This document shows, piece after piece, positions 17,324 to 19,236 of a stretch of 64,000 nucleotides of DNA. The notes beneath the pieces were generated by a model. The model saw only the letters and a list, made by a program, of their open reading frames with translations, searched no databases and was not told the origin of the DNA. Location of the stretch: the NCBI GenBank assembly GCA_005116955.1, contig SWDI01000001.1, positions 276,464 through 340,463 of the forward strand, in the 5' to 3' direction. Each line of letters starts with the position of its first letter. The stretch's first letter is position 1. Both the position numbers and the translations under genes were made by a program. The DNA is from Nitrospira sp. Lineage in GTDB: Bacteria > Nitrospirota > Nitrospiria > Nitrospirales > Nitrospiraceae.

Positions 17324-17611
17324 GTCTGCCTGCCATGGGATACGACGCTTATTTCGTTAATCCTCACCACTTTGCGGAATCGTTTTGTCTGTATTAGCTA
17401 AAGCATCATCTGCTACCACGCTGCTACCAGGACAGGACAAACTGGTCCCATCTCGCCCCATGTCGGGGGAGTCGGGGTTTGTTGATTCTTGCGGAGTTAG
17501 ATTGTCAGAGGGAGGATCAGGTAGAGTTTGTAAACCGCAGGTCGCACGATTCATGTAGCCCCCCTCACCTGGCCCTTGACTCATCAAGATTCATTGTTAT
17601 ATGTTTTGGTC

Positions 17612-17932
17612 ATGGTTGCCAGCGCTCTCTCGACCAAGAAAGCGGTTGTGCTGTTTCACGCCCTGTCAGACGAGACGCGCTTGGTCTTGCTCGACCGATT
17701 GAAAGACGGAGAACAGTGTGTCTGTGAGCTGATGGACGTAATGAAGGCGGCGCAGTCGCGTCTGTCGTTTCACCTCAAGGTATTAAAGGATGCGGGGCTG
17801 GTCGAGGATCGCCGGGAGGGGCGGTGGATGTATTACTCGCTCAGTACTCAGGCGATGGAAGAGCTGGAAGAGTTGGTGGGCTCTCTCAAGAAAGCAGCAA
17901 GGTCGGCGGTTTCTTCGAAACGTTGCTGCTGA
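17612..17932 (+). CDS. arsR: ArsR/SmtB-family metalloregulator
   Basis: 106 residues from the ATG at 17612. The winged helix shows LFHALSDETRLVLLDRL, MKAAQSRLSFHLKVLKDAGLV and the wing DRREGRWMYYSL. The metal-site signature is EQCVCEL (Cys36 and Cys38) in the alpha-3 helix, as in As(III)-sensing ArsR. A C-terminal Cys pair (KRCC) could add a third ligand. ArsR proteins repress arsenic genes and release DNA on binding arsenite. The arsM gene lies downstream on the same strand, separated by a 131-bp hairpin repeat. I found no convincing operator palindrome. Confidence 0.9.
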   Translation: MVASALSTKKAVVLFHALSDETRLVLLDRLKDGEQCVCELMDVMKAAQSRLSFHLKVLKDAGLVEDRREGRWMYYSLSTQAMEELEELVGSLKKAARSAVSSKRCC

Positions 17933-17936
17933 TTTT

Positions 17937-18067
17937 TGCAGGATGATGAAAAAGTCCTGCCAGCATCGTTCTCGCGTCGCTTAGAGGCTCAACGTACGAC
18001 TCCCCAAGTACGCTTCGCCTCTTCGCTCGCTGCGGCCTCGCTGGACAGTCTTTTTGACCATCATGCA
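17937..18067. repeat. 131-bp imperfect palindromic repeat element (MITE/REP-like)
   Basis: The element folds back on itself over nearly its whole length. The outer arms TGCAGGATGATGAAAAAG and CTTTTTGACCATCATGCA are inverted matches. The inner arms GAGGCTCAACGTAC and GTACGCTTCGCCTC are also complementary, around a short loop near 18000. The GAAAAAGTCC...GGACAGTCTTTTTG layout is the kind seen in mobile palindromic elements. It lies between arsR and arsM, so a read-through transcript would contain this hairpin. No second copy was seen in the window. Confidence 0.75.
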
Positions 18068-18154
18068 GGTTCTTAAGGTAGATATGATGTGATGGGTTAC
18101 TTTTCTTGAGGTGGCAGCTCTTATAAATCAACATTTCTTGATTGGAGGTTCATC

Positions 18155-19021
18155 ATGAATGACGCACAGACGCTCAAAGACGAAATCAAGACCAGATACG
18201 GTCAGGCGGCTCTGCAGGCGCAGAAACAGGAGCGGCGTTCCTGCTGCGGGACCGGGACTGTCTTGCAGGCGGGGCAGCTCGATCCTATCACCGGCAATCT
18301 TTACAGCGACCGCGAAGCTGCCACGTTGCCTCAGGATGCCGTGGCGGCGTCGTTGGGGTGCGGGAATCCGACGGCGTTGGCACAGATCGCCCCTGGGGAC
18401 ACCGTCTTGGATTTGGGATCCGGCGGTGGCATTGATGTGCTGCTCTCCGCACGGCGGGTCGGGCCGACCGGTAAGGTCTACGGTCTGGACATGACCGACG
18501 AAATGTTGGCGCTCGCGCGGGCCAATCAGGCGAAGGCCGGGGTGACGAATGTGGAATTCTTGAAAGGCGACATCGAACATATTCCATTACCCGACCACTC
18601 CGTGGATCTCATCATTTCGAACTGTGTGATCAACTTGTCACCCGACAAGGATCTGGTGTTGGCCGAAGCCTTTCGAGTATTGAAGCCAGGAGGGCGGCTG
18701 GCGGTGTCGGACATAGTTGTCCGGGGGGAGATCCCGCAAGCAGTCCGGCGTAATATCGAACTGTGGGCCGGATGCGTCGCTGGCGCGTTAGAGGAAAAAG
18801 AATACCTCACGAAGCTCGAACGAGCCGGGTTCGAACAAGTCTCGATCGAGCCGACCAGGGTCTATACGGCTGCCGATGCGCGGGAGCTGTTCGAGGGGAC
18901 CGATCTTGACCTCAATGCCATCGCGCCGCTCGTCGATGGGAAGTTCCTCAGCGGGTTTGTCCGGGCGACGAAACCGGAGGCCAGTCCCGTGGCCTGTTGC
19001 CCGACTACCTGCTGCTCATGA
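18155..19021 (+). CDS. arsM: Arsenite S-adenosylmethionine methyltransferase
   Basis: 288 residues; the ATG at 18155 has TTGGAGG upstream. The SAM-binding motif [10 protein letters not shown] is at residues 86-95. Cysteines in the positions used by ArsM to bind As(III) are present: Cys69 in SLGCGNP, Cys157 in SNCVINL and Cys207 in WAGCVAGAL. Additional Cys pairs occur at the N-terminus (SCCGTG, 30-31) and at the extreme C-terminus (ACCPTTCCS). ArsM converts As(III) to methylated, partly volatile species in the cytosol. The stop overlaps the start of the truncated arsC gene by ATGA. Confidence 0.95.
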
Positions 19022-19236
19022 AACAGTGTGTATTGTTCCTCTGTACGGGGAATTCGGCTCGCAGTCAGATAGCGGAAGGGCTGCTTCGTCATCTGGTCCA
19101 TTGGAGTTTCGAGGACCCAGCTGCTGTGATTGGATCTTCCGAAGAACGGCGTAAAGCCTTCAAAGGTGATTCGCGTAACGCCTGCAAGGCGCTCATTCCC
19201 ACAGATGCGGACGGTTGGTCAACGAATGCTGGCTGA
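19018..19236 (+). pseudogene. arsC: Arsenate reductase (LMW-phosphatase type), internally deleted
   Basis: 72 residues where thioredoxin-linked ArsC has about 130-140. The first 22 ([20 protein letters not shown]) are a normal N-terminus with the catalytic P-loop Cys-x5-Arg. The sequence then jumps to HWSFEDPAAVIGSSEERRKAFKG, which belongs near the C-terminus of the family (W-F-D-P-A...G...FR). The middle is missing, including the redox cysteines of the reduction cascade. The start overlaps arsM by ATGA, so it once formed an operon with it. It is most probably inactive; a small repurposed peptide cannot be excluded. Confidence 0.8.

Follow-up and report, generated by a model that had tools for sequence, protein, structure and literature searches.

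In the window, by which we mean the whole 64,000-nucleotide stretch of Nitrospira DNA analysed here, a gene for an ArsR/SmtB family repressor, arsR (17612..17932, + strand, with ATG at 17612 and the stop codon TGA at 17930-17932; NF033788 96.2 bits against a cut-off of 55, queried as 17609-17929), is followed by a gene for an arsenite methyltransferase, arsM (18155..19021, +; NF008823 367.5 bits, cut-off 263). Directly 3' of arsM, a frame at 19018-19236 starts like an arsenate reductase of the low-molecular-weight phosphatase type and ends after 72 residues; we take it to be an arsC remnant. Immediately upstream of arsM lie the motif ATCAA-N6-TTGAT (18127..18142, +), which 24 of 25 aligned loci share, and a Shine-Dalgarno-like GGAGG (18144..18148, +), found in 22 of the 24 loci shown. 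The ATCAA-N6-TTGAT motif is kept in loci with and without the element described below, the 25th locus not covering the site, and is a candidate ArsR operator of arsM.

The original prediction described, between arsR and arsM, a 131-bp hairpin element at 17937-18067 with outer arms and an inner GTAC-centred stem. A repeat search and folding bore out the arms, the stem and the position: the outer arms (17937-17964 and 18040-18067) are 28 nt long and 75% complementary, and the inner arm pair (17983-17997 and 18008-18022) has GTAC at its end. The predicted RNA fold has a free energy of -49.4 kcal/mol (z -3.9) on the + strand and -58.8 kcal/mol (z -5.1) on the - strand, and folding with DNA parameters gave a z of -3.4; in each case, 0 of 200 shuffles folded as well. 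While a hairpin does lie at 17937-18067, the boundaries need revision, since the palindromic part defined by the family is 17939..18065 (+; 122.8 bits with the covariance model and supported by the folds; family consensus ~122-124 nt) and the inserted DNA continues to ~18114. The further claim that an imperfect palindrome makes up nearly all of the element was not supported, as two-ended copies are ~204 bp long and the palindrome makes up their left 60%. A reading frame on the - strand (17886-18134) overlaps the element copy in the window, and a frame at another locus (L049, 3100-4008) likewise overlaps or starts within a copy; frames of this kind may get annotated as hypothetical proteins.

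Further copies, which had been expected if the element is mobile, form a dispersed family. In the genome from which the window comes (hereafter the source genome), blastn gave 42 matches to the hairpin. A covariance model was trained on 27 loci, with L018, L026 and L028 excluded from the initial 30 as incomplete. It gave 79 rows at E<=0.01 when 150 of 1476 candidates were scored, the E-values being rough; removal of 13 opposite-strand rows leaves 66 distinct places. A relative, G081, gave 45 rows at E<=1e-8, and a match was found in 141 of the 147 genomes scanned from the taxonomic family that holds Nitrospira and its relatives. These 147 genomes were drawn from a larger group and mostly five candidates were scored per genome, so the scan gives presence and not copy numbers. 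The window itself holds a single clear copy, and a further match of 13 bits (E 0.4) was taken as chance. A 20-base core of the element occurred in at least 116 stretches of named genomes; the 80 records listed are titled Nitrospira, Nitrospiraceae or Nitrospirae, and a scan limited to the matches listed says little about other phyla. Among copies with usable calls, simple gene calling placed 83 of 95 between predicted frames and 12 overlapping one. Two copies in G081 (L355 and L356; contig 5, 10076 and 9129) share one orientation and are separated by 947 bp. Our searches of open-access papers gave no earlier description of the repeat, which is not proof of absence. Nitrospira are major nitrite oxidisers, and an element matched in 141 of 147 of these genomes can disturb gene annotation, assembly and genotyping.

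The true ends of the element were defined using 115 near-full copies from the source genome and other genomes. At the left edge, positions -4 to -1 read YTAR (C/T in 96, T in 92, A in 98 and G/A in 98 of 113 copies), mostly as CTAG, and the left flanks yielded only one alignable pair, an orthologous locus (L022 and L052). The right flanks, in contrast, yielded 254 alignments that stop abruptly ~80 nt past the palindrome. At the close of this shared tail stands a second terminal repeat (its typical form being GTTTTTCCGCAGCCTG), and YTAR comes directly after it. At up to 3 mismatches to the pattern, the right terminal repeat was recognised in 54 of the 112 copies with enough flank, and the tail of copies with a recognisable right end is mostly 76-77 nt long; in the window copy, the repeat was not recognised even by a pattern allowing up to 6 mismatches. 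The left and right tetramers were identical in 28 of the 54 copies with a right end compared to a shuffled mean of 13.1, a level of agreement reached in 0 of 10000 shuffles, and 25 of the 33 copies with YTAR on both sides agreed compared to 14.5 expected. Two-ended copies of ~204 bp are thus built from YTAR, the left terminal inverted repeat, an imperfect hairpin of 122 nt, a ~77-nt tail and YTAR; the far foot of the hairpin is an inverted internal copy of the left terminal repeat, and the tail ends in the right terminal inverted repeat, just before the second YTAR. In the window, family alignment places the left terminal repeat CAGGATGATGAAAAAG, which resembles the ends of the partner insertion sequences described below, at 17939..17954 (+) and its internal inverted copy, the other foot of the hairpin, at 18050..18065 (-).

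Comparison of filled and empty sites supports mobility. Among 30 arsR-arsM loci of the genus, the element is present in two (the source genome and G081) and missing from 22, and six are uninformative. Counted from the alignment, the empty loci read TTAG in 10 of 22 and TAG in 12 of 22 at the insertion point, and the inserted DNA in the window spans ~17939-18114. The window copy is worn, with TTTG as its left target-site copy (17935..17938, +; placed by alignment with the 22 empty loci), no clear duplication on the right and a tail reduced to ~49 nt (18066..18114, +; boundary from the empty sites). Six bases separate the arsR stop codon from the insertion, which is thus not on the stop; the element would have entered a TTAG-like site six bases 3' of it. 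Locus L023 of the source genome holds a better preserved copy, which coincides precisely with the TAG stop codon of a gene for an apparently Hcp-like product and reads CTAG, element, CTAG. Of 20 loci corresponding to this second site, three are filled, seven are empty, three are divergent without the element and seven are uninformative. All seven empty relatives read GTAG, five of them as GTAGGGGA, resembling the bases after the right CTAG, although the join is not base-exact because the first ~40 downstream bases have diverged. At the same site, two relatives carry altered copies (L329 and L330), both with their ends kept, one containing extra DNA within the hairpin and the other with the hairpin's right half deleted.

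Relatives carry insertion sequences that share the ends of the element. A search with the IS1182 model turned up one locus with such ends, and 40 further loci were picked by the same transposase class. At up to 2 mismatches per end, 34 of the 40 have paired matching ends 1.29-1.39 kb apart and six do not. These ends are of four types: type A, CAGGCTGCGGAAAAAC, in 8 loci; type B, CAGGCTGTTGACAAAC or CAGTGTGTTGACAAAC and variants, in 17 loci; type C, CAGGATGTTGAAAAAC and relatives, in 7 loci; and type D, CAGTCTGCTGAAAAAC, in 2 loci. One transposase of each type was assessed, and all four contain DUF772 and DDE_Tnp_1 domains and score above the curated NCBIfam IS5_4 cut-off of 140 bits, with 282.5 bits for type A, 242.4 for type C, 243.8 for type D and, barely above the cut-off, 140.6 for type B. 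The type B protein scores higher against IS1182 (233.1 bits) than against IS5_4, yet stays below the IS1182 cut-off of 270. A 4-bp YTAR duplication is a feature of the IS5 group concerned, and a left YTAR tetramer was read in 32 of the 34 end pairs, the search pattern including TAG with mismatches allowed. The right ends of the short element are nearest to type A in 33, type B in 16, type D in 4 and type C in 1 of 54 copies, although the right-end search pattern favours types A and B, and in 17 of 54 they are identical to an insertion-sequence end across 16 nt. The terminal match between the element and an insertion sequence extends to as many as 21 of 21 nt, while the interiors are unrelated.

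Several other candidates were set aside. A common IS5 with ends GGAAGGTCTGATT and YTAR-like flanks was rejected as partner because its ends differ from those of the element; one single-contig genome (G063) carries 14 equal-scoring copies of it, the examined copy having ATAG on both sides, and no match to the window palindrome was found there at E<=1e-4. Other transposases from our search had ends without a match, the nearest being an IS1182 element with GAGGCTGTGTGAAAA, and first scans of loci for long end pairs pointed to unrelated genes.

Since the element has ends matching those of insertion sequences with IS5-type DDE transposases and, mostly, YTAR flanks, we conclude that it is a miniature inverted-repeat transposable element (MITE), presumably moved in trans. 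Judged by the ends, the target duplications and the empty sites, the MITE is most likely moved in trans by the DDE transposase that IS5-type insertion sequences encode; this enzyme would place it into YTAR sites and duplicate 4 bp. At the family level the element is a MITE, and not a REP/RAYT element, by the defining features tested: it is short, non-coding and dispersed in many copies, it has terminal inverted repeats and target site duplications (the former without a recognisable right end, and the latter worn, in the window copy), and autonomous insertion sequences with the same ends exist in relatives. Of the partner transposase, the source genome holds only one 152-aa fragment, interrupted by a stop. 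The copies there are thus probably fossils, or owe their movement to an insertion sequence that the genome has lost. With a 12-sequence profile, a partner transposase match at E<=1e-8 was found in 67 of the 147 genomes, many of the matches being fragments or distant. Since a genome outside these 67 (G009) has 122 first-look element candidates, element number need not follow partner presence. Taken together, the many scattered copies, the empty sites, the duplicated targets and the insertion sequences that share its ends uphold the prediction of a mobile repeat, and the hairpin in the window is very probably an old copy of a ~204 bp MITE, widespread in Nitrospira and relatives, with an IS5-type mover.

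We also analysed how the two arms of the hairpin have changed. In 27 copies, changes on both sides were seen in 17 of 34 pairs, and paired-change cells numbered 42 compared to 10.2 in shuffled and 2-8 in slid controls. Along the branches of a tree of 110 copies, compensatory changes numbered 51 compared to 1-7 in slid controls, and the pattern was found in the outer and inner parts of the stem alike; these 110 of the 115 copies, from which lengths outside 115-130 nt were excluded, also served for the mismatch and position 10 counts that follow. The stem may be maintained by selection on the hairpin or by one arm correcting the other. Each of the outer 16 positions forms a Watson-Crick pair in at least 93 of 108-110 copies, except position 10, where a G-G mismatch is present in 102 of 110 copies and a pair in only 4. 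Position 10 is G in 106 of 110 left ends and in 53 of 54 right ends, the right-end pattern including that G with mismatches allowed. In contrast, when the internal copy is read as an end, this position is C in 106 of 110 copies, and likewise in the window. Most simply, the internal copy would be an end rendered unusable, with the position 10 base perhaps disabling it as a transposition end; such a difference would explain why the hairpin alone appears to be immobile.

This bears on a reading in which the palindrome alone, consisting of the left repeat and the internal copy as second inverted repeat, would be the mobile unit and the tail incidental. YTAR does follow the palindrome directly in 4 of 115 copies, but none of these four has identical left and right tetramers, as against the 28 of 54 copies with the tail. 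Moreover, it is the tail that ends like an insertion sequence, and the internal copy differs from the real ends at position 10. Neither the tetramers nor position 10 support transposition of the palindrome alone, and we regard it as very improbable. We hold just as little for movement as a REP-type palindrome spread via single-stranded hairpins by a RAYT or IS200-like tyrosine transposase, even though a palindrome with a one-sided CTAG looks REP-like at first sight and the source genome encodes both an IS200 transposase and a RAYT-family protein (NF047646 80.9 bits, cut-off 80). REPs are described as palindromes of 20-40 bp with a GTAG or CGTC tag (PMC3733652), whereas the element contains a 122-nt palindrome with YTAR flanks. 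The gene for the REP-associated tyrosine transposase (L032, 1465-2322) is not flanked by the family palindrome, none being found within 1000-2900 of that locus, and no family member among the covariance-model rows lies within 100 kb of the gene on contig 3. Y1 transposases were found in 99 of 147 genomes and not in G009, G019 and G130, despite element matches in these three. RAYT/IS200 was therefore rejected as the mover: no family palindrome was found beside the RAYT gene and no Y1 transposase in some element-bearing genomes. The two ends of the element, its duplication of 4 bp and its end-matched DDE-type partners also speak against a RAYT-driven palindrome.

A different kind of explanation is that the hairpin is a conserved regulatory RNA or an attenuator of the ars operon, kept under selection. 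Its strong predicted fold would fit, as would the comparison of the source genome with G081, in which the palindrome differs at 1 of 127 positions compared to 42 of 324 for arsR and 80 of 867 for arsM. However, the low-divergence valley extends from ~17900 to ~18300 and takes in the end of arsR and the start of arsM, although over their whole lengths these genes diverge by 13% and 9%, respectively, which hints at recombination over a short tract. For two other orthologous copies, divergence relative to the left flank gives a mixed result (3/122 compared to 35/400, and 12/124 compared to 22/400). Since the quiet stretch runs into the gene ends and the other copies give a mixed picture, recent recombination is as likely as constraint, and purifying selection on the window copy was set aside as confounded with a possible recombination tract. 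The same family occupies 66 places in the source genome, the element is missing from the 22 empty arsR-arsM loci, and Rfam gave no match at the gathering score across the window and none at E<=1 over 17800-18200. On the reference strand, A-C mismatches (148) outnumber G-U mismatches (102), so there is no sign of RNA selection on the strand read with the upstream gene, and selection on the sense RNA was rejected on these wobble counts, which run opposite to it. We therefore consider a selected regulatory RNA or attenuator improbable. The RNA structure put forward in the original prediction stands in part: a fold is predicted and the stem stays paired across copies, but the pattern of substitutions gives no indication of a sense RNA.

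The element frequently lands on the stop codons of genes. In 30 of 114 copies, the stop codon of the upstream gene is the TAR of the left YTAR, and in 6 of 114 there is a mirror-image stop hit on the right, although the 30 and 6 are a biased comparison because some right ends could not be found. Of the copies with a left YTAR, 31 of 71 sit on a stop compared to 120 of 839 comparable sites, which are YTAR tetramers in the same loci that fall on a stop or in intergenic DNA (Fisher p 1.6e-8); when only CTAG is considered, the numbers are 18 of 41 and 41 of 248 (p 2e-4). These counts rely on simple ORF gene calls, and some copies in different genomes are related by descent, such as the orthologous pair L022 and L052. 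The orientation relative to the hit gene (18 left compared to 9 right among the 54 two-ended copies) did not differ significantly (p 0.12). Since YTAR includes TAA and TAG, insertion at a stop codon rebuilds the stop through the duplication and leaves the protein intact, making such insertions harmless to the protein; harmlessness by itself does not account for stops being hit more often than other sites between genes, to which local sequence preference may contribute. The many natural insertions are available for testing the effect of a stop-codon hairpin on an operon.

At the arsR-arsM locus, the insertion leaves the candidate operator and Shine-Dalgarno-like sequence of arsM untouched. The distance from the arsR stop to the arsM start is 222 nt in the window compared to 45 nt in G125, and the insertion would thus widen the gap from 45 to 222 nt while sparing both sites. 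A terminator scan detected no terminator-like site in the element, although its loop limit of 8 would miss a hairpin of this kind, and a promoter scan placed a single site 5' of arsR but predicted no promoter for arsM, so that the idea of an arsM promoter split by the insertion stays speculative. A modest effect of the hairpin on a joint arsR-arsM transcript is possible. More speculatively, the hairpin could be a portable 3'-end module in Nitrospira. Its internal end would be disabled by one fixed base and the rest of its stem kept paired, and landing on stop codons would set it directly after coding sequences, where it would change the ends of transcripts or the balance between genes of an operon, such as arsR and arsM; we put this forward tentatively and think it doubtful.

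Several known systems resemble parts of this picture. IS5 family insertion sequences (NCBIfam IS5_4, DUF772 and DDE) have matching ends and the same YTAR target and are the presumed source of the transposase, but these are 1.3 kb long and coding, and the interior of the element has no homology to theirs. The remaining systems are likened by description and not by sequence. ERIC sequences are ~127 bp long and duplicate TA, and Correia elements of Neisseria also target TA. ERIC is, like our element, a short, dispersed, palindromic and non-coding element that is mostly intergenic; it belongs to another host lineage, and our element differs in its 4-bp YTAR, its extra tail with a third terminal repeat and its IS5-type partners. 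Correia elements share the character of a mobile hairpin MITE and differ in their TA target and in the RNase III cleavage reported for them. QMITE2 of Coxiella burnetii is likewise a MITE at the 3' ends of genes, in another bacterium. According to a review, ERIC insertions at 3' ends can alter transcript decay, Correia repeats are transcribed with neighbouring genes and cleaved by RNase III, and QMITE2 lies mainly in the 3' untranslated region of genes, section 10 of the review making no mention of exact stop-codon landing for QMITE2 (PMC10969869). The distinct points of the Nitrospira element are a third, internal terminal repeat that forms the hairpin, a maintained stem with a fixed mismatch, and landing on stop codons.
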